Shown: positions 17,444 through 33,656 of the stretch, piece by piece | Layout: each line of letters begins with the position of its first letter | How positions within the stretch are numbered: the stretch's first letter is position 1 | From: Chloroflexota bacterium | Lineage (GTDB): Bacteria > Chloroflexota > Anaerolineae > UBA4142 | Assembly: GCA_016865935.1 (NCBI GenBank) | Contig: VGOB01000029.1 | Location: 1-34,337 of the forward strand | Reading direction: 5' to 3' | DNA length: 34,337 nt | Program-made: the position numbers and the translations under genes | The notes under the pieces: generated by a model | What the model saw: the letters and a program-made list of their open reading frames with translations, nothing else | What the model was told of the DNA's origin: nothing | The model's database searches: none

Positions 17444-20400
17444 ATGCCAAAAATCAATCCGCTCCCAGAAATTACCCAAGCCGATGCCGCCGCCGTTGCG
17501 GGCTTAATTCGCCGCGCGGCTGACCAGGCATTGCAACGCGTCGCGCGCGGCGGCAGACCTGAAGCCAACTTTGAAGAGTTGGTCAAACCGATTCTGGAAA
17601 AAGCCGCGCGCGATGTTGGCGCAAAAGATGTTCAGTTCGTCGCGCAGAAAGGCATTATCGGCGCGGGACGACGCGGAGGCACGGGCGCGGCGGATTACGT
17701 CTTCAACAACATCGTCTTGGAATTCAAAGCCCCTGGTGCGCTTGACCAAGCAATCGAAGAACGCATTCCAGTTCCTGAAGTAAAGGAACGGACTATCGGG
17801 AATGTTCAGATTCTACCGCGCGTTCCGTCAGCAAACCGCGAAGCGATCAGCGAAGTCGTCAAGTACGTTACGGGACTCGCGCTCGACCAGTACGGCAACG
17901 ACTGGCGCGCGAACCTGGGGCGCTACGCCGCCGTCATCCTTGACGGGTACTTGATGTTCTTCGTGCGCTATCTCCCCGCGCTCGAACATTTTGTCGTGAC
18001 CGCGCCGCAAGAAATCTCCACCAAGAATTTTTACGGTATCCATCGTTTGCTGACACTTTTCCGTTCGGTGGACAAAAAACCGCTCAACGCCGATTATCTC
18101 GCCGCCGATTTCGGCATTGTCGAGGAAAAACGCGCGCGCGTCGCGAGCCAGTTGGCGAAACGCGTCGTCGGCGTGTTCTACGCGCGCATCAAGGACGCGG
18201 TCGAAAACAGCAGCGCGCGCGGCGCGATGATTCGCTCGCGCTATCAAGAATGGCGCAAACTCTTTCGCCAAGTCGTTTCATTTGAGGAAAAGGAAGCACA
18301 ACAACGCTTTGGCAATCTTCGCACCGATTACGCCATCGGCGGGAGCAAAACGGATTTCAATGTCGCCGCATTTTTCTTCGCGCTTTCCACGTACTATGGC
18401 TTGCTCATCAAACTGCTCGTTGCGGAATTGCTCGTCAACTATTGTTGCAAGACCGTGACGACGACGCTCGAAAATATTTCGGCGCTGCCGTCAGACACAT
18501 TGCGCGAGACGCTCGAAAGTTTGGAGCGCGAAGGCGGATTCATTTCGTCGCTGAACGTTCGCAATTTCCTCGAAGGCGAATTGTTCGATTGGTACGTTGA
18601 CCCGCGTGGCTGGGACAAGGAACTCGACGGCGCGGTGCGGAGCGTCGTTTCCAAATTGTCGGGTTACGAAGTGACGACATTCGTGTTGAAACCCGAAGAG
18701 ACGCACGACTTGCTCAAGGATTTGTACGAACGCTTGATTCCGCGCCAAGCGCGCCACGACCTGGGCGAGTATTACACGCCCGATTGGCTCGCGCAATTTG
18801 TGTTGGGCGAACTGCGCGATTTGGCGGGCTACGACGGCGACGTGTTCAAGCGCGTGCTCGACCCGACGTGCGGCAGTGGCACATTTTTGGTCGAGGTGAT
18901 CAAGCAAGCGAAAGATTCGCCGCAAGCCAAGACGCTTGCGCCCGAACAAGTTTTGCAAGCCATCACGCGCAACATCGTCGGTTTTGATTTGAATCCGCTT
19001 GCGGTGTTGGCGGCGCGCGCGAATTACATCATCGCGCTCGGCGATTTGATTCGCGGGAGCGAGGGCTTGCGCTACATCCCCGAACCGATCACGATTCCGA
19101 TTTGGCTGACCGATTCGATTCTCGTGCCTGCCGCGCCGCGTCAGGCGGGCTTGGGACAAACGAATCCCGCGTATCAAGTGTCGCTCGAAGTGTTGAAAGA
19201 ATTACGACCACGCGGCAAGCCATCGGAGCATCAATTGTTCGTCCCGCGTCCGCTCGTGGACGAGGGCAAGTTGGAAGTGTTGGCGGAAACCGTTCAACGC
19301 GGCATCGAACAAGATTGGAATGCCGAACGCTTTGCCGATGCAATCTTCGACGCGGCGAATCTCGAAACGTGGTATCGAGCGCGCAACTCTGACCGCAGAA
19401 TTGTCGAAGAAGAAATCGTAACGGCGCGGCGTCTGTTGCGCGAAATGTTCGAGACGTTTCGCGAATTGAAAGCGAAAAATCTCGACGATGCGTGGGCGCG
19501 TTACCTCGTCAATCGTTTCGCGCCGATTTACACGACGCGCGAATCGAAATTCGATTTCGTCGTCGGCAATCCGCCGTGGATCAACTGGGAGAGTTTGCCC
19601 GACGATTATCGCGACGCGCAACAATCGCTTTGGAAAGAGTACGGCTTGTTCAAGCAGGCAGGCACAGGCAACAAAGGCACGTCGGTTCGACACGGCGCGG
19701 GCAAAAAAGACCTTTCGATGCTCGTCACCTACGTCGCGGTGGACAAACTGTTGCGCGACGGCGGACACATCGCGTTCGTCATCACGCAAACCGTTTTCAA
19801 AACCGAAGCGGGCGAGGGATTCCGCCGCTTTGTCATTCCGCAAAACGTCACGTACTTTGCGCCGCTGCGCGTTCACGATTTCTCCGCGTTCCAACCGTTT
19901 GAAGGCGCGACGAATCGCACGGCGGTCTTTGTCGCGAAAAAAGGGCAAGAAGTTCAGTACCCCGTTGATTACTTGCTGTGGCGCGCGCACGAACCCGTTT
20001 ACGCGTCCGACGCTTACGCCGACGTCACGCGCAAGACGACGCAACTGAAATTTGCCGCCGAACCAGTGAACAAGGCGGTCAACGGAATCAAAAACGACCG
20101 TTGGCTCACGGCGGGACCGCAAGCGATTCGCGCGCTGCGAAAATTCACGGGCGCGGTGCAACAATTTTATCAAGCATACGAGGGATCAAACACGGGCGGC
20201 GCGAACGGCGTGTACTGGCTTTCGATTGACGAGAAATTGGGCAAGAAACACGCGCTCGTCACCAACTATTTGAAAGGTGCAAAGCGCAAGGTCAAGCAGT
20301 ACACGAATTATAAAATCGAAACCGAATTACTATACCCGTTATTGCGCGGGCGTGATGTCCAGCGATGGAACGCGTTCCCTAGTTTGCACATTCTTGCAGT

Positions 20401-21055
20401 GCAAGACCCAGAAAAGCGCGTGGGCTATCGTGAGGATTGGCTCCAAGATAAAGCGCCGCTAACGTTTGCGTGGCTCAAACAATTCAAGAAGGAATTAGCC
20501 GAGCGCAAGTCGAGCGTCATTCCAAGAGATCCGTTTTACTCGATGTACGCGATTGGTACGATAACATTTTCGCCGTACAAAGTCGTTTGGTCAGAAATCG
20601 CGCGTACGCTCCAAGCCGCAGTAATCAGTGATGTCGAGGACGAGAAACTCGGGCAAAAAGTTGTCGTGCCAGACCACACAGCCGTCTTCATTCCGTCCAA
20701 AACCGAAACCGAAGCGCATTACCTCTGCGCGTTGCTCAACTCTGCGCCCGCGCAATTGGCGGCAATGTCGTACATCGTTTTGCATCCCGACCCGCACGTT
20801 CTCACGCGCATCGGCATTCCCAAGTACGACGCGAAGAACGAAACGCACGCCGCGCTTGCCGCACAATCCAAACGCGCGCACAAGGCGCAAACGAAAGAAA
20901 ACGCGGACGCGGTGAAAGAAGCGGAAACAGAAATAGACGCGCTCGCGGCGAAGGTGTGGAATCTGACGGACGCCGAGTTGCGCGAAATCCAAGACGGTTT
21001 AGCGGAGTTGACGGGAACGTCAGGCGCAGAAGATGGCGAAGAGGAAGAGGAATAA
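17444..21055 (+). CDS. Type IIG-like fused restriction nuclease / N6-adenine DNA methyltransferase
   Basis: 1203 aa; 'ADYVFNNIVLEFKAPG' (PD-(D/E)XK-like), 'LGEYYTPDWLAQFV...VLDPTCGSGTFLVEVI', 'FDFVVGNPPWINW'. Confidence 0.88.
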   Translation: MPKINPLPEITQADAAAVAGLIRRAADQALQRVARGGRPEANFEELVKPILEKAARDVGAKDVQFVAQKGIIGAGRRGGTGAADYVFNNIVLEFKAPGALDQAIEERIPVPEVKERTIGNVQILPRVPSANREAISEVVKYVTGLALDQYGNDWRANLGRYAAVILDGYLMFFVRYLPALEHFVVTAPQEISTKNFYGIHRLLTLFRSVDKKPLNADYLAADFGIVEEKRARVASQLAKRVVGVFYARIKDAVENSSARGAMIRSRYQEWRKLFRQVVSFEEKEAQQRFGNLRTDYAIGGSKTDFNVAAFFFALSTYYGLLIKLLVAELLVNYCCKTVTTTLENISALPSDTLRETLESLEREGGFISSLNVRNFLEGELFDWYVDPRGWDKELDGAVRSVVSKLSGYEVTTFVLKPEETHDLLKDLYERLIPRQARHDLGEYYTPDWLAQFVLGELRDLAGYDGDVFKRVLDPTCGSGTFLVEVIKQAKDSPQAKTLAPEQVLQAITRNIVGFDLNPLAVLAARANYIIALGDLIRGSEGLRYIPEPITIPIWLTDSILVPAAPRQAGLGQTNPAYQVSLEVLKELRPRGKPSEHQLFVPRPLVDEGKLEVLAETVQRGIEQDWNAERFADAIFDAANLETWYRARNSDRRIVEEEIVTARRLLREMFETFRELKAKNLDDAWARYLVNRFAPIYTTRESKFDFVVGNPPWINWESLPDDYRDAQQSLWKEYGLFKQAGTGNKGTSVRHGAGKKDLSMLVTYVAVDKLLRDGGHIAFVITQTVFKTEAGEGFRRFVIPQNVTYFAPLRVHDFSAFQPFEGATNRTAVFVAKKGQEVQYPVDYLLWRAHEPVYASDAYADVTRKTTQLKFAAEPVNKAVNGIKNDRWLTAGPQAIRALRKFTGAVQQFYQAYEGSNTGGANGVYWLSIDEKLGKKHALVTNYLKGAKRKVKQYTNYKIETELLYPLLRGRDVQRWNAFPSLHILAVQDPEKRVGYREDWLQDKAPLTFAWLKQFKKELAERKSSVIPRDPFYSMYAIGTITFSPYKVVWSEIARTLQAAVISDVEDEKLGQKVVVPDHTAVFIPSKTETEAHYLCALLNSAPAQLAAMSYIVLHPDPHVLTRIGIPKYDAKNETHAALAAQSKRAHKAQTKENADAVKEAETEIDALAAKVWNLTDAELREIQDGLAELTGTSGAEDGEEEEE

Positions 21056-21088: not shown

Positions 21089-21101
21089 TGGGAGAAAACG
21101 A

Positions 21102-21356
21102 ATGGCAGTCATCGCACGTGATTTGATGAAAAACATAATGGTTGTCGGCAACGCGCGGTACGCCCGCGCGCGCGTCTCGCGCTTGGAAACCGCACGGCAA
21201 AAACTGGAACGCGGCGAAAACTTTTACTGGCAAACGCCGCGCGGCTTGTTCTACGTCAACCTGTACGCGTACGACGCGATGGCAATTCCGCGGCAGCAAG
21301 TTTCAGAACATCTCAAGCGAACGATGCTCACTAAGCGAACGCGGTCCCGTTTGTAA
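21102..21356 (+). CDS. 84-aa hypothetical protein (alternative start 21033 overlapping the methyltransferase gene)
   Basis: 'MAVIARDLMKNIMVVGNARYARARVSRLETARQKLERGENFYWQTPRGLFYVNLYAYDAMAIP'. Confidence 0.5.
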   Translation: MAVIARDLMKNIMVVGNARYARARVSRLETARQKLERGENFYWQTPRGLFYVNLYAYDAMAIPRQQVSEHLKRTMLTKRTRSRL

Positions 21357-21357
21357 A

Positions 21358-21396
21358 AAATAAACGCGCGGACAACGAATCCGCGCGTTTATTTTC
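21358..21396. terminator. Bidirectional terminator between convergent units
   Basis: AAATAAACGCGCGGA-caacgaa-TCCGCGCGTTTATTT, A run before and T run after. Confidence 0.88.
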
Positions 21397-22804
21397 GCCG
21401 ATACATCTTCAGCGCGCGCTCGCGCTGAACCGCGTGCTCCACCATCGGCGCGGGATAATCCGTGCCGATTTCCACACCCGCGCGGCGCGCGATTTCGCGC
21501 GGCATCGTTGAGGGCGCGTGAATATACTCGCGCGGCACGCGCGCGAGTTCGGGAATCCACCGCTTGACGTACGCGCCGTCGGGATCGAATTTCGCGCCTT
21601 GCAACAGCGGGTTGAAGATGCGAAAGAACGGCTGCGCGTCCGTGCCAGTGCCCGCCGCCCACTGCCACCCGCCATTGTTCGACGCGATGTCGCCGTCAAT
21701 CAAATTCCGCAAGAAATATTTTTCGCCCCAGCGCCAATCAATCAGCAAGTCCTTCGTGAGAAATGATGCGACGATCATCCGCGCGCGATTGTGCATCCAG
21801 CCCGTCGCGTTCAGTTGCCGCATCCCTGCGTCTACGATGGGAAATCCCGTCCGACCCTCACACCACGCCGCGAATTTTTCCGCGTCATTTTCCCACGCGA
21901 TTGCATCGTACTCGCGCCTGAACGCGCCGCGCGCCGCGTGCGGGAAATGCCACAAGACCTGCGCGTAAAATTCGCGCCACACGAGTTCGTCAATCCACGT
22001 TTTGCCCTGCTTGCCCGCGTCCGCGTCGCGCGCCGCGCGCGCCAGTTCGCGCGCCGAGACGGTGCCGAAATGCAAATGCGACGACAGATGCGACGTCGCA
22101 TCGCGCGCGAGGAAATCGCGCAGATCGCGATAGCGCGCCAAACCATCGTCACGACGAAAGAACGCGCGCGCAAGCTTCAACGCTTCCGTTTCGCCGCCGC
22201 GCGCAAAACGATCGTCGCGCGGCAGACGCGGCAATTCCAGCGACACAATGTCGCGCGGCGTGTTCAAATCGCCGCGCGTTGCGTAACGATTCGGGATGAT
22301 CACGCGCTCTTCAAAACGCAGGCGAAAGCGCGTGTACACAGTGTACGGCGTGCCGTCGTCTTTCAAGACCTGTTCAGGCGCGGCAAGATAGTTATCGTCG
22401 AACGTTTCAACACGCACACCGAGCGCGTTCAGCGCGTCCGTCACACGCGCATCGCGCGCTCGCGCGTACGGCGTGTAATCGCGATGAAAGTAGACCGCAT
22501 CGGCGCGCGTTTCGTGGACGAGACGCGGCAACTCGCGCGCGGGATCGCCGCGTTGCACGATCAGTCGCCCGCCGCGTTCGCGCAAGCGCGCGTCAAGATC
22601 GGCGAGCGAATCGAAAAGAAATTGTTTGCGCGCGGGCGCGAGTTTGTCGCTGTTCAGCAAACGCGAATCGAGAATGAAAACAGGGATGATGCTGTCCGCA
22701 TCGCGCAACGCGTAGTGCAAAGCGACATTATCGGTCACGCGCAAATCGCGCCGCAACCACCAGAGGATTCTCTGTCTCACGGTCCTACTGCCCCAGCGCG
22801 CCAT
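21389..22804 (-). CDS. phr: Deoxyribodipyrimidine photolyase (start ATG 22804 or GTG 22780)
   Basis: 'RILWWLRRDLRVTDNVALHYAL', 'WREFYAQVLWHFP', 'GRTGFPIVDAGMRQLNATGWMHNRARMIVASFLTKDLLIDWRWGEKYF'. Confidence 0.95.
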   Translation of the reverse strand: MARWGSRTVRQRILWWLRRDLRVTDNVALHYALRDADSIIPVFILDSRLLNSDKLAPARKQFLFDSLADLDARLRERGGRLIVQRGDPARELPRLVHETRADAVYFHRDYTPYARARDARVTDALNALGVRVETFDDNYLAAPEQVLKDDGTPYTVYTRFRLRFEERVIIPNRYATRGDLNTPRDIVSLELPRLPRDDRFARGGETEALKLARAFFRRDDGLARYRDLRDFLARDATSHLSSHLHFGTVSARELARAARDADAGKQGKTWIDELVWREFYAQVLWHFPHAARGAFRREYDAIAWENDAEKFAAWCEGRTGFPIVDAGMRQLNATGWMHNRARMIVASFLTKDLLIDWRWGEKYFLRNLIDGDIASNNGGWQWAAGTGTDAQPFFRIFNPLLQGAKFDPDGAYVKRWIPELARVPREYIHAPSTMPREIARRAGVEIGTDYPAPMVEHAVQRERALKMYRRK

Positions 22805-23381
22805 CCATCGGCTTGCTCCAACTCGTCCCCAGCACGCCGCGCAACAACAAATCAGTGAGCGGATGATCGGCAATCGTGTCGTAATAGTACGGCAAACGAA
22901 TTTTGCCGTCCGTGCCGATGATGAACGCGCCGGACATTTGCATCACGTCCTGGCTGCGCGGCGGTAATTCGGTCTTGTGTCCACGCCACCACGCGCGCAA
23001 CGTGCCCAGCAAAACTTGCGGCGACAACATCACTTGCCACAAACTACCGCGTTCCAAGCCGAACGCGCGGTACGCTTTGCGTTCGGGATCGGCGAGGCAC
23101 GCGATTCCTGGCGCGCGTTGTTCGCAAAACACACGCGCCGCGTCCGGGTCGCCTTGCGTAACCGCCGCAATCGTCAAACCCGCGCGCGCGATTTCGGATT
23201 TCGCTTCGACGATCTGCGCGAGCATCTCTTTGCACTGCGGACAACCAAAGTGGCGCGTGAACACCAGCAGAATCGTTTTTTCTTTCCACAACGACGACAA
23301 ACGGATCGCTTTGTTTTCCGTCGTTAAGATTTCCGCATCTGGGGCGGGATCGTTAAATTTCAAACGAGCGAATTTTGCCAT
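22785..23381 (-). CDS. Peroxiredoxin-like (AhpC/TSA family) protein
   Basis: ATG 23381 with GGGAG upstream; 'ILLVFTRHFGCPQCKEML'. Confidence 0.88.
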   Translation of the reverse strand: MAKFARLKFNDPAPDAEILTTENKAIRLSSLWKEKTILLVFTRHFGCPQCKEMLAQIVEAKSEIARAGLTIAAVTQGDPDAARVFCEQRAPGIACLADPERKAYRAFGLERGSLWQVMLSPQVLLGTLRAWWRGHKTELPPRSQDVMQMSGAFIIGTDGKIRLPYYYDTIADHPLTDLLLRGVLGTSWSKPMDGALGQ

Positions 23382-23392
23382 CGGTATCTCCC

Positions 23393-24130
23393 TCAATTCG
23401 CCGTCACCGCTTCGCCCGTCGTCGCGAACGCGCGAATCTCGGCGGGATCGCTGATGACGCGACGCAGCTTGCCATCGCGCATTTGAATGATGCGATCCGC
23501 GTACTGCGTCATCCGTAAATCGTGCGTCACCATAATTCCCGCGCGCTGCTGCTCGTGAATCAAATTCGCAAATGTCTGGATGACTTGATGCGCGCGTTCG
23601 GTGTCCAGCGACGCGGTCGGTTCGTCCGCCAGCACGAGCGCGGGCGTGTGGATCAACGCGCGCGCAATCGCGACGCGTTGTTGTTGTCCGCCGGATAATT
23701 GGCGCGGCAAATTTTTCAGTCGTTCCCCCAGACCCAGCCGCGCAAGTAATTCGCGCGCGCGCTCGCGTCCCGCGCGATCGTACTTGCCGTTCAAGCGCAA
23801 CATCAATTCGACGTTTTCGAGCGCGGTCAAGTACGGCACGAGATTATTCGCTTGAAACGTAAAGCCGATCTTCTCACGGCGAAAGCGCGCGCGCTTGGCT
23901 TCGCTCATCTGGCTCAACTCCGCGCCGTCAATCATCACCGACCCTTCGTTCGGACGCAAGAGCGCGGCGAGAATCGCCAGCATCGTCGTCTTGCCCGAGC
24001 CGCTGGGTCCAACCAGCGCGACGAATTCGCCGTTCGCGACGTTGAGCGAAACCTCGTCCACCGCGCGGATCGTGCCGATGTCGCTCTTGTAGATTTTCGT
24101 GACCGATTTTGTTTCGAGTGCGTTTACCAT
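23393..24130 (-). CDS. ABC transporter ATP-binding protein (MacB/LolD/DevA-like)
   Basis: Walker A 'GPSGSGKT', signature '[15 protein letters not shown]', '[10 protein letters not shown]'. Confidence 0.95.
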
Positions 24131-24145
24131 TAAATCACCTTGCGG

Positions 24146-24225
24146 TTGTCATTCTGAGCGCAGCGAACGCTTTGCGTCTCGCGATGTGCTTTGCGAGACG
24201 CTTCGCTCCGCTCAGCGTGACAATG
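24146..24225. repeat. TGTCATTCTGAGCG-type palindromic intergenic repeat
   Basis: TTGTCATTCTGAGCGCAGCGAACG... pairs with ...CGCTCCGCTCAGCGTGACAA. Confidence 0.8.
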
Positions 24226-24230
24226 CCACA

Positions 24231-25385
24231 CTACCCCGTCAATCCCAGCGCGGTCAGCGGCTCGACGCGCAGCGCGTAGCGTACCGAGACCAAGCCGCCG
24301 ATCGGTCCAACCAACATCAGGGACGCGACGCCGATCACAATCGCCATCGGCGAGAAAACGATCGGTATCGTTGCGGGAAACGTAAACGACAACAAAACCG
24401 TTGCCAACGCGCCGATGCTCACACCCAGGATCGTCACCAAAACGATTTGTGTCAGCGCGGCAATCGCGATCAGAAGATTCGGCGCGCCAATCGCTTTTAA
24501 CATTCCGATCTGCGGGACTTTTTGCAGCGTTTGAATCTGGAAAAATCCGCCGATGACGAGCACGCCGATCAAGAGCGTGAAAAATCGTTGCGTGTCGAGC
24601 GTGCTTTGCTGCGCGCTGTACCCCGGCGTGTTTTGGTACGCGGTCTGTCGGTCAACGGCTTGAATCCCTTCAACTTGATTCGCGAGCGTTATCGCCATCG
24701 CTTTCCAATTCAACGGCTCGTCCAATTGCACAATGATCAGATTGGAAACCAGATCGGTCGCGTTCACAACCGGTACGCCAGGTTTGACGCGATCGAACGT
24801 TGGATGCGAGACGATCACACTCGGTTGCAACGAGTATTGTCGCCCATCGCTTATGCCGACGATGCGCAAATCGTAAAATTCTTCCTGCGTACCTTGAATC
24901 GCTTTGAGACGGAGTTGATCGCCGACCGTGTAGCCAGTTCGCAACGCAACATTGCGATCGATGATCGCTTCGCTGCTACTTTTGTCACCGAGTCCGCGGC
25001 CCAATACCACAGGCGGCTCGCCGGGTTTCCCAGGTTCGACGCCGATCAGCGCGACGTTGAATTTTTTGCCTTCGCTTTGAAGCAACACCACACTGCTAAA
25101 ACTGGCTTGCCCCGCGTCTTTCACACCCGGCACACGCACAATCGCGCGCAACTGCGAACGATCCAGACGGCTCGCGCCAATCGAAAGGTCAACATTCGAT
25201 TTGTACACGATCAGCTCACCGTTCAGTTTTTCGATGTACTCGCGGTTACCATTCCCCAAGCCGTCGGCAAGCGCGGCGATGAACAACACGAGCAAGGTGA
25301 TCAGCGCGATCACAAGACTGAACAAGAGAAAGCGTCCGCGATTGCGCCAGATTTCTTTGAGCGTGAGATAAAAGGGCGTCGTCAT
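24231..25385 (-). CDS. ABC transporter permease (FtsX/DevC-like)
   Basis: 'MTTPFYLTLKEIWRNRGRFLLFSLVIALITLLVLFIAALADGL' and C-terminal TM segments. Confidence 0.87.
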   Translation of the reverse strand: MTTPFYLTLKEIWRNRGRFLLFSLVIALITLLVLFIAALADGLGNGNREYIEKLNGELIVYKSNVDLSIGASRLDRSQLRAIVRVPGVKDAGQASFSSVVLLQSEGKKFNVALIGVEPGKPGEPPVVLGRGLGDKSSSEAIIDRNVALRTGYTVGDQLRLKAIQGTQEEFYDLRIVGISDGRQYSLQPSVIVSHPTFDRVKPGVPVVNATDLVSNLIIVQLDEPLNWKAMAITLANQVEGIQAVDRQTAYQNTPGYSAQQSTLDTQRFFTLLIGVLVIGGFFQIQTLQKVPQIGMLKAIGAPNLLIAIAALTQIVLVTILGVSIGALATVLLSFTFPATIPIVFSPMAIVIGVASLMLVGPIGGLVSVRYALRVEPLTALGLTG

Positions 25386-25711
25386 TGCGCGCGATCTCCC
25401 ATCCAAAATTTTTTCCAATCGCCGCGACTCGCGTTCAGCGCGAGCAAAACGTACAGCGCGGCAGTCCAATTCCCCAGCACCATCATCAACGCGACCCAAA
25501 CGATTTTCGCCGCCAGCGATTTCTCGCGGTACACGATCCACAACGAGAAAAGCGTAAAGCCGACGTAGAGATCAACCAGCGAGACGATGCCCCAGGGATG
25601 CGACGTGATCCACGCGCCTTCGACCGCAAAATTGCCGAACGCGAATGCATAGACAATCGCGATGGTCATTACCAGCAAACCGAGAATCGAAATTGCTTTT
25701 GCGATGTTCAT
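25382..25711 (-). CDS. DUF1475-like membrane protein
   Basis: 'GAWITSHPWGIVSLVDLYVGFTLFSLWIVYREKSLAAKIVWVALMMVLGNWTAALYVLLAL'. Confidence 0.7.
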   Translation of the reverse strand: MNIAKAISILGLLVMTIAIVYAFAFGNFAVEGAWITSHPWGIVSLVDLYVGFTLFSLWIVYREKSLAAKIVWVALMMVLGNWTAALYVLLALNASRGDWKKFWMGDRAQ

Positions 25712-25726
25712 TGTTCCTCCTTTCAC

Positions 25727-25803
25727 GACCGATGACCGATGACCGATGGCCGATTTCCTCCGTCCTCCGTCTTCGGTCATCGGTCATCGGTCATCGGTCA
25801 TCA
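25727..25803. repeat. GACCGAT heptamer palindrome
   Basis: GACCGAT x3 + GGCCGAT ... CGGTCAT x4. Confidence 0.88.
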
Positions 25804-26676
25804 ATCCCACAAACGTGGAACCAACACCGGCGTCCGTTTTTTGTATGCCTCGTACTCGGGTTGCCCGCCCCATTTCTTATCCGCTTTGGCTTCCAGCAAC
25901 GGAACGCCGCTGACGCGCGTGAGCAACACGGTAACGAACACAGGCGAAATCAGCGCGACCCATTGCCACCCTTGCAGAACGGGCAACGCGATCACCGCGA
26001 CGCCGATCCAGAGTACAATCTCGCCAAAGTAATTGGGGTGACGCGAGCGCGACCACAAACCGGTTTGAATGAACTTGCCTTTGTTCGCTGGGTTTGCGCC
26101 AAAGCGATTTTTTTGCGCGTCCGCGATAACCTCGATTGCAAAACCGAAAGCCCAAACGACCAAACCAACGAGCGCAAACACATCCAAGTCTCTGCGCGTG
26201 GTCGTCGTGATCGCGACGAGCGCGGCGGCGGCGGTGAATGTGACCCACAAACCTTGGATCGTCCACACATTCAGAAAACGAATGAACGACGGCTTGAGAT
26301 CATCAAAGCGATCATCCTTGCCTGCGCGTTGGATACGCCGGAACAAAAATGTTCCCAGGCGCGCCGCCCAGATCACGACCAATGCCCACAGAAGGATCGT
26401 GCGCGCATCCATCGCGGGACTGAAACGCAACGCCAAAGTCGTTACGGAAATGTAGGTGATGCTCCCCGTGAGATCGAAAAACTTTTCCGTCTGTCGCAGG
26501 TAGGACGGAACAAAGACCAGCCACTGGATCAGAAAAGCCAGCCCGACCGCCAAGGCAAACAACGGAATTCCGCCAAACAAAGTTCCACCCTGACTACCCG
26601 CCCAAGCCACCGCCGTGCCGATCAAGATCAAAACGACAAAGATGAGCCATCCTTTGAAATCTATCGTCTTCATCAT
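25801..26676 (-). CDS. DUF1295 / isoprenylcysteine carboxyl methyltransferase-like membrane protein
   Basis: 'GLWSRSRHPNYFGEIVLWIGV', 'GVPLLEAKADKKWGGQPEYEAYKKRTPVLVP'. Confidence 0.9.
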   Translation of the reverse strand: MMKTIDFKGWLIFVVLILIGTAVAWAGSQGGTLFGGIPLFALAVGLAFLIQWLVFVPSYLRQTEKFFDLTGSITYISVTTLALRFSPAMDARTILLWALVVIWAARLGTFLFRRIQRAGKDDRFDDLKPSFIRFLNVWTIQGLWVTFTAAAALVAITTTTRRDLDVFALVGLVVWAFGFAIEVIADAQKNRFGANPANKGKFIQTGLWSRSRHPNYFGEIVLWIGVAVIALPVLQGWQWVALISPVFVTVLLTRVSGVPLLEAKADKKWGGQPEYEAYKKRTPVLVPRLWD

Positions 26677-26681
26677 ACGCC

Positions 26682-26717
26682 TCCTTCATCCTTCATCCTT
26701 CATCCTTCATCCTTCGT
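26682..26717. repeat. CCTTCAT heptamer array
   Basis: CCTTCAT x4 then CCTTCGT. Confidence 0.85.
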
Positions 26718-27550
26718 CACTGCTTGCTCACGACCGCAAACCCGACCGCGCCTGGACCGATGTGCGCGCCGATGACGGGCGTAATGTCCGTCGCGATAAC
26801 TTCGGACGGCAAGAGGTGTGCGGCGTGCGCGCGCAATTCCGCGACGCGCGTCGGCGCGTTGGTATGAACGATCGCGACGCGTTCCAGCGCGCCAACCTCG
26901 TGCAGCATTTCGAGCAAGCGTTGCGTCGCGCGTTCGCGCGTGCGGACGCGCTCCGCGCCTGGCTTGCCGTCGTACATCGTCAGAATCGGTTTGAGTTGCA
27001 AGAGCGTGCCGAAACTCGCGATCACGCCGTTCATTCGCCCGCTGCGTTTCAAGAATTCCAACGTATCGAGCGCGGCAAACACGCGCGAGCGTTTGATTTG
27101 CGCGTTGAGCGCAGGAATAATTTCGCCGACCGTGCGTCCTTCCGCCGCGAGTTTCGCCGCCGTCTCGACCAGAAACCCCGTGCCCAAACTCAGTTGCCGC
27201 GAATCGAACACGGTGACAGGAACTGATTGCGTTTCGCGCGCGCCGATTTGCGCGGTATCCAGCACCGCGCTGAGCGCGCTCGAAATGTGAATGGACAAGA
27301 CCTGGGTCGCGTCTTCATCTGCCAGCGCGTCGTACATCGCGCGAAATTTCAGCGGCGATGGCGCGGCAGTTGTCGGGTGCGCGGGAAAAGTCGGCAAGCG
27401 ATTGTAAAATTCCTCGCGCGTCAGATCAATCCCGTCGAGAAAACCTTGTTTGCCCACGTTGATGTACAGCGGCACGACGCGAATGTCGTAGCGCGCAATC
27501 GTCTCTTTGGGCAAATCACACGTACTATCGGTAACGATTCGAACAGACAT
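26717..27550 (-). CDS. DegV family (fatty-acid-binding) protein
   Basis: 'VRIVTDSTCDLPKETIARYDIRVVPLYIN', 'TTAAPSPLKF', 'LEFLKRSGRM'. Confidence 0.93.
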   Translation of the reverse strand: MSVRIVTDSTCDLPKETIARYDIRVVPLYINVGKQGFLDGIDLTREEFYNRLPTFPAHPTTAAPSPLKFRAMYDALADEDATQVLSIHISSALSAVLDTAQIGARETQSVPVTVFDSRQLSLGTGFLVETAAKLAAEGRTVGEIIPALNAQIKRSRVFAALDTLEFLKRSGRMNGVIASFGTLLQLKPILTMYDGKPGAERVRTRERATQRLLEMLHEVGALERVAIVHTNAPTRVAELRAHAAHLLPSEVIATDITPVIGAHIGPGAVGFAVVSKQ

Positions 27551-27565
27551 ATTTCCTTCTCTTTG

Positions 27566-27597
27566 CGACCGCCGACGGCTGACCGCCGACCGCCGTA
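27566..27597. repeat. GACCGCC heptamer-type repeat
   Basis: GACCGCCGACGGCTGACCGCCGACCGCC. Confidence 0.6.
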
Positions 27598-27603
27598 CAA
27601 TTT

Positions 27604-27948
27604 TTAGATGACAAGAATCGCGCCCAGAATTATTTCGATGACGAGACTGATGATATTCGATTGGGCGTACGACTGATCGAACACGATCGAAAACGCGCGC
27701 GCGACGGCAATCGCCAGATAGCCGATGCCGAGCACTTGATACGCGGTTGCGCCCAGGAAGAGCGGCGCGAGACCGAGCGCGATGAACAAGCCGCCGAAGA
27801 TCGCGCGAATCTCCGAGACGCCGCGCGCGCCGTTCGCGTTCAAGCCGATAAAGCCGTACGTCGCAGCGGGCTTGACGAATGCGAGCAACCCAGTGGCTGC
27901 CGTCGCCAATGCCGCGATGATTTTCAAAACTGTCAAGATGTCGTTCAT
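27604..27948 (-). CDS. DUF4345-like membrane protein
   Basis: 'GLNANGARGVSEIRAIFGGLFIALGLAPLFLGATAYQVLGIGYLAIAVARAFSI'. Confidence 0.7.
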   Translation of the reverse strand: MNDILTVLKIIAALATAATGLLAFVKPAATYGFIGLNANGARGVSEIRAIFGGLFIALGLAPLFLGATAYQVLGIGYLAIAVARAFSIVFDQSYAQSNIISLVIEIILGAILVI

Positions 27949-29396
27949 TTTTCCTCCAAGCGTTCCGCCTGTTTTGCAATCGCGTCAACCATTCCAGAGA
28001 AGACGACGGCGTGCAGCGGATACAACACGTACCAATACAACAAACCGAACAAACCTTTTGGAATGAAGAACGCAGTTTGAATGAGCCGCGCTTTGCCATC
28101 GCCCTGCGGCTCAGCGCGATATTCCAACCACGCAGGTCCTGGCGATTTCATCTCGGCGCGCAAACGCAACAGCCGATTCGGTTCGATTTTTTCCACGCGC
28201 CAAAAATCAAGCGCGTCGCCGACGTGCAATTCGTCGGGATGCCGCCGCCCGCGCCGCAGACCGACGCCGCCGACAAGTCGATCGAGCGCGCCGCGAATGC
28301 GCCACAGCCAATTCGCGTACAGCCAGCCGCGCTTGCCGCCCAGTCCCGTGAAGACGCGATACGCCGCTTCGGGACTCGCGGCGACGATGCGTTGCCGCGT
28401 TTCGGTGATGATGCCTTCGCGATACACGAATTTGGCTTGCGCCGCGTCCCCTCTGCTGCTCAACAACGCATCGCTCCACGATGTTTCGACCTGGCTCGCG
28501 TCGAGTTGCGCGAGCGCATCGTCCAACGCGCGCGCGAAATCGAGCGGCTGAATGTTCGGAAAAATCTTTCGCGCCGCGTCATCGCGCACAATCACTTCGT
28601 TCCGCAATCCTTCGATCAACGGATGCGCGATGTTCGCCGGAATCGGCGTCATCCAGTGCACCCAGTACGCGGAAAGTTTGGGCGTCAACACCGGCACCGG
28701 AATCAACCAGCGTTTCAAACCGCGCGCGCGCGCGTACCCCAGCATCATATCGCCGTACTTTTGCGCATCCGCGCCGCCAATTTCGATGATGCGCCCCGCG
28801 CTCTCTGGCACGCGCAACGCGGTGACGAGATAATCGAGGATGTCGCGAATCGCAATCGGTTGGACGCGCACGTAGACCCAGCGCGGGCAAATCATCAGCG
28901 GCACGCGTTCCGTCATCGTGCGAATGATTTCAAACGACACACTGCCCGACCCGACGATAATCGCGGCGCGAAATTCGGTGACAGGAATTCCCGACTCGCG
29001 CAACGCGTCGCCCGTTTCTTGGCGCGAACGCAAATGCTTGGACAATTTCTCATCGGGATTGCCCAAGCCGCCGAGATAAATAACGCGCTGAACATTTGCG
29101 TCGCGCGCGGCGCGACCAAAATTACGCGCGGCGGTCAAATCGCGGTTGCGAAAATCGCGGAACTCGCTCATACTGTGGACGAGATAGTACGCCGCGTCCA
29201 CGCCTTGCATCGCGCTCGTCAGCGTTTCCGCTTGCAACACATCGCCTTGCGCGATTTCGACGCGCGCATACCAGGGACGATCCTGCAAGCGTTCGGGATC
29301 GCGCGCGAGCACGCGCACGCGATAACCCGCGTCAAGCAACTGCGGCACGAGGCGTCCGCCGACGTACCCCGTCGCGCCTGTGACCAAGACTTTCAC
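27945..29396 (-). CDS. SDR-family NAD(P)-binding protein with DUF2867 domain
   Basis: 'MKVLVTGATGYVGGRLVPQLLDAGYRVRVLARDPERL', 'AYYLVHSM', C-terminal DUF2867 pattern. Confidence 0.9.
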   Translation of the reverse strand: MKVLVTGATGYVGGRLVPQLLDAGYRVRVLARDPERLQDRPWYARVEIAQGDVLQAETLTSAMQGVDAAYYLVHSMSEFRDFRNRDLTAARNFGRAARDANVQRVIYLGGLGNPDEKLSKHLRSRQETGDALRESGIPVTEFRAAIIVGSGSVSFEIIRTMTERVPLMICPRWVYVRVQPIAIRDILDYLVTALRVPESAGRIIEIGGADAQKYGDMMLGYARARGLKRWLIPVPVLTPKLSAYWVHWMTPIPANIAHPLIEGLRNEVIVRDDAARKIFPNIQPLDFARALDDALAQLDASQVETSWSDALLSSRGDAAQAKFVYREGIITETRQRIVAASPEAAYRVFTGLGGKRGWLYANWLWRIRGALDRLVGGVGLRRGRRHPDELHVGDALDFWRVEKIEPNRLLRLRAEMKSPGPAWLEYRAEPQGDGKARLIQTAFFIPKGLFGLLYWYVLYPLHAVVFSGMVDAIAKQAERLEEK

Positions 29397-30313
29397 TTTA
29401 GCACATCCTTCAACGCATTGTCCGCGTTCGCAAATTGAAATTTGAAACCCGCGCGCAACAATCGTTCAGGCACGGCGCGCTGACCGCTGAGCAAAAGCAA
29501 TTCCGCCATTTCGCCCAGCGCGAGTTTGAGCGCGAACCCAGGAACGGGAAACCAGAACGGACGATGCAACACGCGCGCGAGCGCGCGCCCAAAATCGGCG
29601 TTCGTCAACGGATTCGGCGCGGTCAAGTTGAAGACGCCGCGCGCATTTTCGTTTTCGATGAGAAATTGGATCGCGCGAACATAATCGGCGAGATGAATCC
29701 ACGCGATAAATTGTCTGCCGCTGCCAATCGGTCCGCCAAAAAACAATCTGAACGGCAAAGCCAAGTACGGAAACACGCCGTCCGATTTGTCGAGCGGCAA
29801 GCCCGTGCGAATAATCGCGCGGCGCACGCCAAGCGCTTCCACTTGCGCGCTCGACGCTTCCCATTGCGTCGCGACATCACCCAGAAAATCATCCCCCGCT
29901 GAATTTTTCTCGGTGATGATCTCTTCGCCGCGCGCGCCATAGTATCCGACGCCCGATGCTTGGATAACGACGCGCGGTTTCACGCGCGCGAGCCGTACCG
30001 CTTCGACCATCGCTTTGCCTGCGTTGACGCGGCTATCGCGAATGCGCCGCTTGCGTTCGTTCGTCCAAGGGATCGGCGGAATGCCGATGCTTTCCCCCGC
30101 GAGATTCACAATCGCGAACGCGCCATCGGCGAGCGCGCCCCAGCCCTGCGCGGTGCGCCCATCCCATTTTTCGACGCGCACGCCGCTCGGAACGTCGCGC
30201 GTTGTTTCGGGATTGCGACCAAGCCAAACGATTTCGTATCCCGCGCGCAACAATTCGTCTGTCAGCGCGCGCCCCAGGAATCCCGAACCGCCCGTGATCA
30301 CGATGCGTTTCAT
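29393..30313 (-). CDS. TIGR01777-family NAD-dependent epimerase-like oxidoreductase
   Basis: 'MKRIVITGGSGFLGRALTDELLRAGYEIVWLGRNP', 'VNLAGESIG', 'FNLTAPNPLTNADFGRALA'. Confidence 0.93.
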   Translation of the reverse strand: MKRIVITGGSGFLGRALTDELLRAGYEIVWLGRNPETTRDVPSGVRVEKWDGRTAQGWGALADGAFAIVNLAGESIGIPPIPWTNERKRRIRDSRVNAGKAMVEAVRLARVKPRVVIQASGVGYYGARGEEIITEKNSAGDDFLGDVATQWEASSAQVEALGVRRAIIRTGLPLDKSDGVFPYLALPFRLFFGGPIGSGRQFIAWIHLADYVRAIQFLIENENARGVFNLTAPNPLTNADFGRALARVLHRPFWFPVPGFALKLALGEMAELLLLSGQRAVPERLLRAGFKFQFANADNALKDVLK

Positions 30314-30327
30314 TTCGACCTCCAATG

Positions 30328-30378
30328 TGACCGATGACCGAAGACCGAAGACCGAAGACCGAAGACGGACGACCAGGG
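30328..30378. repeat. GACCGAA heptamer array
   Basis: GACCGAT GACCGAA GACCGAA GACCGAA GACCGAA GACGGAC. Confidence 0.88.
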
Positions 30379-30412
30379 ACGCGACCTTCGTCATTCATCC
30401 TTCGTCTTTCGC

Positions 30413-31693
30413 CTAACTTTTTATCCGCGCAACCAGTGGTTGATACAACCGATTTTGTTCTTGCGGAAACGCTTTTGCGAGCACGCGCGCGAACGTCTCA
30501 ATGTGCTTGTCGAGCAATTCCGCCGTCACCGCGCGCGAGGGCATCATTTCGTCCAACCACGCGCGTTCCGCATCCATCAATTCGGGCGCGTCGAACGCGA
30601 GCGCGCACACCAACGCATCGGCAAGAAACAAGGTCGCGCGATTAAGGTCAGTCACATTCCATTTAGGTTGAAGATTCGGCGACAGCGCCGCCATAAATCG
30701 CGCGACGGTATCGCCCGCAAGTTTGAGTCGCTGGGCGCGCAGCGCGTTCGTCGCGATCCATACGCGCTTGCTGGGCGACCAGTACTTGGCGCGCGGTTTG
30801 AACGCGACCAAATCGCGCGCCGCCGCGTCAACATCCGCGCCGAGGTACTCGCCAGGCAAATGCTCGCGCAAAGTGGACGATGCGTCTACGATCCGTCCGC
30901 CAAAAACTAATTTCACGCGCGGACGCTGCGCGGCATCGAGCCAGGGGATCAATCCCGCCAAACCAATCACCGTCGTCACGGTGACGACGACCACGTTCGG
31001 CTTTGCCGTGCGCGCAATGTCATTCAGGTCGGCAAGCGGCGTACCTTGACCCAGGAAAATGACGCGCCAACCTTGACGCTGCGCGAGCAGCGCAAAAGTC
31101 AACAGACCGAGCGTGTGTTCTTCGTTCGGCGCGCACGCGGCGACGAGCGACGGCGCACCCATCGGCGGCGTGGGTTGCGATTGCAAGATGGCGTACAGTT
31201 TTTGCTGGACGAGATTGCTCGCGAGATGTTCCTGCCACACGGTCAGCTCGTTCCGCATCCAGCGCGCGCCGATTTCGCGCATCGTCGGCTCGATGATTTG
31301 CAACGCGACTTGCTCGGGCGCGAAGAGCGCGAACGCCTCGTCGAGAACGCGCCGCGCCGCCGTTTCGTCCGATTGCGCGAACGCGTCGAGCAGCGCGGTC
31401 TGCGTCGCGGCAATTGGCTGCACCGCTTCAGACAACGCGACACCGCGCGGTTGCTCGTGCCGTTGGCGCAAGAACGCGCTCGCCTGCGCGGGCGGGATTC
31501 CCGATTCGACTTGCTGTTTCAGCCACAACACATCGGCAACGTCGTCTTCGCCGTACAAACGATAGCGATTCTCCGCGCCGCGATTTGGTTTCGGCACGCC
31601 GTAGCGGCGTTCCCACGCGCGCAAGGTGTGAACCGAAACGCCCGTGCGTTCCGCGACGAGTTTGATCGTAAAGCCAAACGTTTGATCGTTCAT
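30413..31693 (-). CDS. MerR-type, B12-binding transcriptional regulator (CarH/LitR-like photoreceptor)
   Basis: MerR HTH 'LVAERTGVSVHTLRAWERRYGVP'; W-x9-EH motif 'WMRNELTVWQEH'; 'NEEHTLG' ExH B12 motif; ATGA overlap with upstream gene. Confidence 0.9.
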   Translation of the reverse strand: MNDQTFGFTIKLVAERTGVSVHTLRAWERRYGVPKPNRGAENRYRLYGEDDVADVLWLKQQVESGIPPAQASAFLRQRHEQPRGVALSEAVQPIAATQTALLDAFAQSDETAARRVLDEAFALFAPEQVALQIIEPTMREIGARWMRNELTVWQEHLASNLVQQKLYAILQSQPTPPMGAPSLVAACAPNEEHTLGLLTFALLAQRQGWRVIFLGQGTPLADLNDIARTAKPNVVVVTVTTVIGLAGLIPWLDAAQRPRVKLVFGGRIVDASSTLREHLPGEYLGADVDAAARDLVAFKPRAKYWSPSKRVWIATNALRAQRLKLAGDTVARFMAALSPNLQPKWNVTDLNRATLFLADALVCALAFDAPELMDAERAWLDEMMPSRAVTAELLDKHIETFARVLAKAFPQEQNRLYQPLVARIKS

Positions 31694-32457
31694 CGCCGCG
31701 CAACCACCAATTTTTTAGCGCGATACCAGATGCTCAGCGGAATCAACAGAACGACGAGCGCGGTCATCGCCCACGTCGCATTCGCAACCAAGGGGACGGC
31801 GGATTGCTTGATCGCGATTCCGATGAACGACCAAATGATCACCACGAGATACGCCACATCGCCGCGCGTCCAAGCCATCGCTAGCGTCAGCGCCGACGCG
31901 ACGACGAGCATCATCACCGCCCACACTTGCGGCGCAATGCCAAATCCATCCCAGTTCCAAAAGTACAACAAATCGGTGACGTTCGCAATCGTCGCGACGC
32001 TAATCCAGCCGAGATAGATACCGAACGGAATATCCACACACATTTTTTCGATTGCGGTTGTGTGCGCACGTCCGATGTTCAAGCGTACGTAAATCGCGAT
32101 TAGCGACAAGAGGAGCACAAGCATCACGACGACGGATAACGGAAAAAGTTCATAGTGCCACGCGAACAACCAAGCGGCGTTCGCGAGACAGCTCAGCACA
32201 AACAACCAGCCGATGCGGTGAAGGCGCGGATTATCCCGTTGTCCCGGCAATGCCTGATACACGATGAACGCGATCCAGCCGAGGTAGATCACGCCCCAGA
32301 TGGCAAAGACATAACCCGCGGGGACAAAGAAAACTTTGAACTGGTCTGAAATCGCGCCCGTGCTTTGACCGTTCAAGGGCAGCGCGCTCGCCAGCCCATT
32401 CACCGCTAGCGCGATTAGCGCCGCCGCAATATTGATCCAAGGTAACCACCGTTTCAT
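31690..32457 (-). CDS. TspO/MBR-related tryptophan-rich membrane protein
   Basis: 'VFAIWGVIYLGWIAFIVYQ', 'NAAWLFAWHYELFPLSVVVMLVLL', 'PFGIYLGWISVATIANV'. Confidence 0.75.
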   Translation of the reverse strand: MKRWLPWINIAAALIALAVNGLASALPLNGQSTGAISDQFKVFFVPAGYVFAIWGVIYLGWIAFIVYQALPGQRDNPRLHRIGWLFVLSCLANAAWLFAWHYELFPLSVVVMLVLLLSLIAIYVRLNIGRAHTTAIEKMCVDIPFGIYLGWISVATIANVTDLLYFWNWDGFGIAPQVWAVMMLVVASALTLAMAWTRGDVAYLVVIIWSFIGIAIKQSAVPLVANATWAMTALVVLLIPLSIWYRAKKLVVARR

Positions 32458-32475
32458 CTTTGCCTCCCGTTGCAT

Positions 32476-32494
32476 TTCTACAGACATTATACAA
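32476..32494. promoter_or_regulatory. Candidate CarH operator: two direct repeats nTnTACAn 11 bp apart
   Basis: TTCTACAG (32476-32483) and TTATACAA (32487-32494). Confidence 0.65.
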
Positions 32495-32514
32495 CGATCA
32501 GTACGTTGTGTCAA
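32486..32514 (-). promoter_or_regulatory. Perfect consensus promoter of the tspO-carH-...-phr unit
   Basis: On minus strand TTGACA-17 nt-TATAAT; operator overlaps -10; ACAACG/CGTTGT inverted repeat in spacer. Confidence 0.88.
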
Positions 32515-32545
32515 GTGTTTGTCTAATGTTTTAACGATGTTCTAA

Positions 32546-32592
32546 CGAAAAAACCTGCCAGGTTTTCGCGCACGCGACCTGACAGGTTTTCG
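32546..32592 (-). terminator. Terminator-like palindromic repeat downstream of hypE
   Basis: Minus strand AAAACC-TGGCA-GGTTTTTT; paired AACCTGCCAGG/CCTGACAGGTTT copies. Confidence 0.6.
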
Positions 32593-32594
32593 GT

Positions 32595-33656
32595 TTAGCA
32601 AATCCGCGGCAACTGCTCGCCGCTCAGCAGATCCACCACGCGCCTTCCGCCGATGCGGCTCCGCAAGTACACCTTGCCTGGATGCTCCGCGACCACCGCG
32701 CCGATGATCGCCGCGTCTGCGCCGAGCGGATGCGCGCGCATCGCCGCCAGAACTTGCTCCGCGTCTTGCCGCGCGACGACGACGATGACCTTGCCTTCGT
32801 TCGCAACGTAGAGCGGATCGAATCCGAGAATCTCGCACGCGGCAGCAACGGCGGGACGTACAGGCAACGCGTCTTCGCGGATGACGATGCCCGTCTGCGA
32901 TTGCCTGGCGATTTCGTTCAGCGTCGTTCCCACGCCGCCGCGCGTTGGATCGCGCAGGACGTGAACGCGCTCGCTCGTCGCGATGATTTGCGCGATCAGA
33001 TGATTGAGCGGCGCGATGTCGCTTTGCACTTCCGCTTCAAATCCCAGGTCGCCGCGCGCGCTGAGTACCGCGATGCCGTGATCGCCGATCGTGCCAGACA
33101 GAATGACGATGTCGCCTGGTTGCGCGCGCGCGCCGCCGATCGCAACGCCCGCTTGAATCGTGCCGACGCCCGTCGTCGTGATGTACAGTCCATCGGCTTT
33201 GCCTCTTTGCACGACCTTGGTATCGCCCGCGACGATCTGCACGCCCGCCTCTGCCGCTGCCGCGCGCATTGATTCGATCACGCGCGCGAGCAGCGCGAGC
33301 TGCAATCCTTCTTCGAGAATGAATCCTGCGGTGAGATACAACGGCGTCGCGCCCATCATCGCCACGTCGTTCACCGTGCCGCAGACGGACAATCGTCCAA
33401 TGTCGCCGCCTGGGAAAAAGAGCGGCGTGACGACGTGCGAATCGGTGCTGATGGCGAGGCGCGCGCCCACCTGGGTCGGGACGACGCCCGCGTCATCACC
33501 CGCGCGCAACACGGGATTGTCGAACGCGGGCGTAAAATATTTGGCGATGAGATCGTGCGACATTTTGCCGCCGCTGCCGTGTCCCATCACGATTTGCTCG
33601 TCGTGCGAGAGCGGAATGGGGCAGACCGCGCCTTGCATAGTTGTTGGTTCAGTCAT
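32595..33656 (-). CDS. hypE: Hydrogenase maturation protein HypE
   Basis: 'IVMGHGSGGKMSHDLI', 'DSHVVTPLFFPGGDIGRLSVCGTVNDVAMMGA', 'RDPTRGGVGTTLNEIA', C-terminal 'PRIC'. Confidence 0.94.
   Translation of the reverse strand: MTEPTTMQGAVCPIPLSHDEQIVMGHGSGGKMSHDLIAKYFTPAFDNPVLRAGDDAGVVPTQVGARLAISTDSHVVTPLFFPGGDIGRLSVCGTVNDVAMMGATPLYLTAGFILEEGLQLALLARVIESMRAAAAEAGVQIVAGDTKVVQRGKADGLYITTTGVGTIQAGVAIGGARAQPGDIVILSGTIGDHGIAVLSARGDLGFEAEVQSDIAPLNHLIAQIIATSERVHVLRDPTRGGVGTTLNEIARQSQTGIVIREDALPVRPAVAAACEILGFDPLYVANEGKVIVVVARQDAEQVLAAMRAHPLGADAAIIGAVVAEHPGKVYLRSRIGGRRVVDLLSGEQLPRIC

Follow-up and report, generated by a model that had tools for sequence, protein, structure and literature searches.

A CarH-like regulator with a photocobilin-type domain and its candidate carotenoid-free photoprotection operon in a Chloroflexota bacterium

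Introduction

CarH is known mainly as a carotenoid-synthesis switch. What would such a switch govern in a bacterium in which carotenoids are apparently not made? The question is raised by contig C29 of a draft Chloroflexota genome (G000; 4.8 Mb, 94% complete), whose 34,337 bases are the whole stretch analysed and are called the window here. A CarH-type switch and a matching operator appear to control a unit free of carotenoid genes in a genome without detectable phytoene synthase (PF00494), which was also not found in four of seven relatives. A literature search returned no paper joining two or more of DUF1295, TIGR01777, DUF1475, DUF4345 and photolyase.

A first-pass annotation had taken the locus for a single photoprotection unit under a CarH-type regulator. 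That reading is partly supported: a putative operator lies on the only strong promoter, linkage to the photolyase gene (phr) and to several lipid- and redox-type genes is conserved in other families, and other lineages of the class have carotenoid genes next to the regulator. The first-pass annotation had noticed neither the operator nor the photocobilin-type domain, nor that carotenoids are apparently not synthesised here. We consider it likely that the regulator is a CarH-type, AdoCbl-dependent dark repressor of its own carotenoid-free photoprotection operon, a reading in which light response, AdoCbl binding and co-transcription are properties that we infer.

Organization of the unit

Open reading frames and family searches delimit eleven to twelve co-oriented genes on the minus strand, from tspO to phr (32457-21389), and bear out the orientation and gene list given earlier. 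Read from the tspO end, the features are as follows.

32540..32600, minus strand: terminator-like hairpin and T run, 3' of the hypE-like upstream gene; bounds the unit at its start (fold energy -28.6 kcal/mol, z -5.5)
32486..32514, minus strand: sigma-70 promoter, TTGACA-17-TATAAT (12/12 match)
31690..32457, minus strand: tspO-like membrane protein, 255 aa (PF03073, 29.7 bits; homologues adjoin merR at loci L035 and L037)
30413..31693, minus strand: MerR-B12-photoglobin regulator (CarH-like), 426 aa (Pfam, PDB sequence, fold, conservation; W145, E155-H156, E191xH193, W379)
29393..30313, minus strand: TIGR01777-family NAD(P)-binding oxidoreductase (ThyD-like) with DUF1731 (310 bits, above cut-off)
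27945..29396, minus strand: SDR/NmrA-type oxidoreductase fused to DUF2867 (family search)
27604..27948, minus strand: DUF4345 small membrane protein (family search)
26717..27550, minus strand: DegV family protein, lipid binding (261 bits)
25801..26673, minus strand: DUF1295 membrane protein, steroid-reductase/ICMT-like (224 bits)
25382..25711, minus strand: DUF1475 small membrane protein (29 bits, above cut-off)
24231..25385, minus strand: FtsX-type ABC permease (family search)
23393..24130, minus strand: ABC ATPase, DevA/LolD/MacB type (best NCBIfam match DevA, 220 bits, under its cut-off)
22785..23381, minus strand: SelL-related redoxin (145 bits, above cut-off)
21389..22780, minus strand: class I photolyase, phr (best PDB matches, at E about 1e-105, to cyanobacterial and type I photolyases; scores below the NCBIfam equivalog cut-offs)
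21350..21400, minus strand: terminator-like hairpin and T run, 3' of phr; end boundary of the unit (RNA fold -27.5 kcal/mol, z -6.1)

DegV, earlier counted among the membrane proteins, belongs to a soluble lipid-binding family. The name TspO is a weak assignment, as the PF03073 match stands against an empty hmmscan result and no match in the PDB. Its start is placed at ATG 32457; TTG 32514, where the open reading frame begins, was dropped as a start because the promoter occupies 32514-32486.

The 4-bp overlaps described previously are exact at tspO/merR (31690-31693), TIGR01777/SDR (29393-29396), SDR/DUF4345 (27945-27948) and DUF1475/permease (25382-25385). The overlap claimed for redoxin and phr exists only with an upstream phr start; from GTG 22780 the genes lie 4 bp apart. 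The larger gaps do hold repeats, with heptads at 30329-30374, 26682-26715 and 25769-25802. Between the genes of the unit lie heptad repeats in tandem, of the GACCGAT/TCCTTCA type, and strong hairpins that lack a T tail, at 25712-25800 (z -9.3), 26682-26715, 30329-30374 and 24131-24231 (z -6.3), possibly dispersed elements tuning distal genes; the hairpins at 25712-25800 and 24131-24231 may tune distal expression.

The 12/12 promoter is the only one of its strength in the 11.6 kb from 21100 to 32700, the remaining promoter-like sites there all scoring 9/12. Terminator-like sites in this interval numbered 18, against 22.3 in shuffled sequences, and there was no internal excess. A B12 riboswitch or other known RNA was not found in an Rfam scan. 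On the plus strand, at 17444-21055 of the window, an ORF of 1203 aa with an NPPW motif resembles an Eco57I/type IIG-like DNA methyltransferase.

A putative operator

Published CarH operators consist of tandem 11-bp repeats with the consensus nAnnTnnACAn that overlap the promoter (PMC8156234). In Thermus thermophilus, three such repeats lie at -34, -23 and -12, with the -35 box as the second of them. The candidate counterpart in the window is:

32497..32529, minus strand: putative CarH-type operator, 11-bp repeats ACATTAGACAA, ACACTTGACAC and degenerate AACGTACTGAT (from sequence only; conserved in nine clade promoters)

The TnnACA core occurs 5' of tspO at -34 and -23, counted from the start of the -10 box, with a degenerate third copy at -12, and the second repeat is the -35 hexamer itself. 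Repeats of this core 11 bp apart precede merR or tspO-merR in nine promoters of the window clade, which has a support of 1.0 in a FastTree tree. The mean core match in these promoters, out of a maximum of 4, is 3.44 at -34, 3.89 at -23 and 2.78 at -12, and it is lower at nearly all other offsets (offset -7 also reaches 2.78). With at most one mismatch, TNGACAAACAYTDDACA locates the merR or tspO-merR promoter in seven of eight genomes; control matches amount to one or two per genome in some of the eight. TG directly 5' of the -10 box, together with GTTTGTC 3' of it in several clade promoters, suggests possible inverted half-sites over the -10 box.

The region upstream of carH on Thermus pTT27 reads TGTACA/TTGACA/TATACA, its TTGACA flanked by repeats that are likewise 11 bp apart. 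Full three-repeat arrays precede crtB, crtI or merR in some distant families. Overall there are 0.34 matches per locus, versus 0.05 in simple shuffles, and most distant loci have none.

Elsewhere in G000 (C183:8179-8195, locus L095) a second operator-like match with one mismatch overlies a TTGACA...TATCCT promoter, 5' of a gene for an M50-type membrane metalloprotease that likely carries a CBS domain. Since the neighbours of the site in genome G012 are arranged differently, this match was not included among the regulator's targets.

Conservation of gene order and the carotenoid link

A contig scan with the regulator gave one distant locus only, and the class figures come from whole-genome searches, in which 127 of 396 genomes contained regulator matches (E 1e-40). 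Neighbourhoods were compared at 40 loci and the window; these are draft genomes and absences are provisional. The first gene downstream of the regulator is co-directional with it at 38 of the 41 loci. Among co-directional downstream genes, phr recurs at 18 loci in nine families, TIGR01777 at 12 loci in six, FtsX and ABC at five loci in five and the redoxin at three loci in three; DegV, DUF1295, DUF1475 and DUF4345 are found in two families (f1 and f29) and SDR2 in f1 only. The suspicion that the neighbours might be unlinked to carH in relatives is therefore not borne out for phr, TIGR01777, DegV, DUF1295, DUF1475, DUF4345 or FtsX/ABC, and the linkage is weaker for SDR2, the redoxin and tspO.

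Genomes with the regulator hold 34 strong copies of DUF1295, weak matches having been excluded as probably other families. Eleven of these lie within 12 kb of the regulator, against well under one at random placement, although the eleven include the window and its relatives and are not independent events; the other 23 are far from it or on other contigs.

These neighbourhoods bear on whether the whole unit answers to one switch. The regulator might govern the proximal genes only (tspO-merR, perhaps the SDRs), with distal genes including phr served by internal promoters or mere neighbours. Gaps of 44-101 bp with repeats, the strong hairpins at 25712-25800 and 24131-24231 and gene sets that vary among relatives would all suit such an arrangement. 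We nevertheless judge it unlikely: same-strand promoters elsewhere do not exceed 9/12, neither hairpin is followed by a T tail, and DegV, DUF1295, DUF1475, FtsX/ABC and phr repeatedly lie co-directionally downstream of merR in other families.

In other families crtB, crtI, lycopene cyclase and P450 genes adjoin the regulator, these neighbours being named by sequence reading and likeness to the annotated Thermus cluster rather than by profile search. Since the same switch stands beside carotenoid genes in relatives, and such genes are apparently lacking here, light protection is probably achieved by other means.

Two further arrangements were observed. In family f5 (L044-L056) the same regulator type has a different putative target set, a conserved trio of SDR, SRPBCC-like and SDR genes taking the place of photolyase downstream. 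At L041 (G003:C94, 10440-12383) a shorter, tail-less MerR-B12 protein is encoded, and the TIGR01777 and DegV genes run divergently from it; even at this locus the two are thus linked to a regulator of the MerR-B12 kind.

The regulator and its B12 and light residues

The regulator combines a MerR helix-turn-helix with both B12 domains (PF13411, PF02607 and PF02310, all above Pfam cut-offs), and its top PDB sequence match is Thermus CarH. Its last 127 residues lie outside CarH and have their counterpart, by alignment, in the photocobilins' photoglobin domain. Together the B12 and globin regions match photocobilins over residues 94-406 (hmmsearch E 3e-35). An AlphaFold model (mean pLDDT 87.7) found photocobilins 8J2W, 8J2X and 8J2Y as the best Foldseek PDB matches, ahead of CarH, with TM-scores by target of 0.76-0.80. 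Matches from a plasmid search were confined to carH-type genes of Thermus and a single MerR from Caballeronia, and the globin tail is covered by none of them. The combination of MerR, B12 and photoglobin domains is likely to be listed already in the 2022 photoglobin paper by Schneider.

Counting the window, 40 of 41 homologues have the globin tail; it is absent in L041, and that of L050 is cut by a contig end. The W-x9-EH motif (W145, E155, H156) and the lower-ligand H193 are invariant in all 41, and position 191 is E in 40 and D in one (E/DxH). The protein scores 146 bits against the NCBIfam CarH equivalog, whose cut-off is 400 bits, and for this reason it is termed CarH-like rather than CarH sensu stricto. 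His132, required for monomerisation of T. thermophilus CarH, varies in photocobilins too (PMC11796333); the residue that corresponds here to this His of the bis-His light state is Met146, at a position that varies across the class. By cut-off and by His132 the protein is no canonical CarH; the best-supported assignment is to the wider MerR-B12 light family, with a CarH-like mode of action. Supply of AdoCbl is likely, as CobA/BtuR was found in eight of eight genomes; PduO adenosyltransferase gave a broken weak match only and was set aside, CobA/BtuR being found in its place.

With Met at the His132 position, the protein might instead sense the level of cobalamin or the redox state, light being incidental. 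There are precedents in Myxococcus CarA, a B12-independent CarH paralogue (PMC8156234), and in a Vibrio MerR proposed to answer to reactive oxygen species (PMC5241685). Such a sensor is rather improbable here, where the light signature residues are invariant and the partners are a photolyase, which needs light, and, elsewhere, carotenoid genes.

Does the regulator use a bilin?

In the photocobilin SasPcob, biliverdin is held by Asp270 and Trp296, and once the equivalent Asp is lost from AbPcob its occupancy by biliverdin drops to about 20% (PMC10979010). To reconcile the two numberings, 6 was taken as the difference between the chain index and the residue numbers of that paper, a value deduced from the positions of W61, E71, H72 and H108. 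The equivalent of Trp296 is Trp379, kept in 39 of 40 homologues. The equivalent of Asp270 is Ala353, or Phe356 if a 3-residue gap in the profile is accepted; Asp occurs at 353 in none of 40 homologues and at 356 in two, and the Asp270 position is Ala across the whole window clade. Heme oxygenase (PF01126) was found in neither G000 nor its close relatives, and in only three of 396 class genomes.

With heme oxygenase nearly absent from the class and the key bilin Asp apparently missing, red sensing through biliverdin is doubtful. Use of biliverdin by this regulator appears doubtful likewise; the heme oxygenase search covered PF01126, and supply by other enzymes or by uptake would be possible. 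A full photocobilin, with biliverdin in the globin extending sensing to red besides green or blue, is thus quite improbable in spite of the full-length match to SasPcob and AbPcob in sequence and fold and the conserved Trp, and the regulator is not a demonstrated photocobilin. What, then, is a photoglobin domain for in a cell that apparently makes no bilin? Probably it protects or stabilises the corrin, or it holds some ligand other than biliverdin from the cell's own synthesis.

Proposed mechanism and significance

As a dark repressor, the regulator would bind adenosylcobalamin in the dark, oligomerise and occupy the 11-bp repeats that cover the -35 box. With the single promoter, upstream of tspO, blocked in this way, the genes from tspO-merR to phr would be silent, the regulator's own among them. 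In light, the Co-C bond would break, the assembly would dissociate or rearrange, and the unit would be expressed. Photolyase would then repair DNA and the redoxin remove peroxides, and the DegV, DUF1295, DUF1475, DUF4345, SDR and ABC genes would probably serve in the repair or export of light-damaged lipids or pigments.

Domain architecture, B12 and light residues, operator geometry, the single strong promoter, boundary hairpins and conserved linkage favour this reading. Against it are the missed CarH cut-off, Met in place of His132, the degenerate third repeat, the length of the operon with its strong internal hairpins, and several distant loci without a full operator array.

A broader proposal is offered tentatively. 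These proteins may be widespread transcriptional photoreceptors of photocobilin fold that have given up bilin, with the globin a structural or other-ligand module and AdoCbl the only switch, and the CarH regulon may have moved in this lineage from carotenoid synthesis to lipid repair and export and DNA repair. If so, DegV, DUF1295, DUF1475, DUF4345 and the FtsX/ABC exporter would be new photoprotection genes. The unit provides a short, testable list of uncharacterised candidates for light protection, and a DNA-binding relative of the photocobilins may serve as an optogenetic part.

Relation to known systems

The protein resembles T. thermophilus CarH, also a MerR and B12 repressor, whose cluster on pTT27 has phr, P450, lycopene cyclase, crtB and SDR genes nearby. 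The Thermus system differs in that CarH has no globin tail and has His132, carotenoid genes are present, and the regulator is divergent from crtB-phr. With the photocobilins SasPcob and AbDPcob the protein shares a B12 domain with a C-terminal globin, the same fold and the W-EH and E/DxH motifs; unlike them, it has a fused MerR DNA-binding domain and Ala at the Asp270 position, and no heme oxygenase was found. The third likeness is to the class II LitR clusters of Pseudomonas (PplR/PmlR), in which a MerR-type light regulator occurs with photolyase, SDR and a lipid-type gene. There, phrB, an SDR and a lipid-modifying gene form a light-induced polycistron (PMC9758184). The Pseudomonas regulators differ in being controlled by a LOV partner protein, and their lipid genes are others (ufaM).
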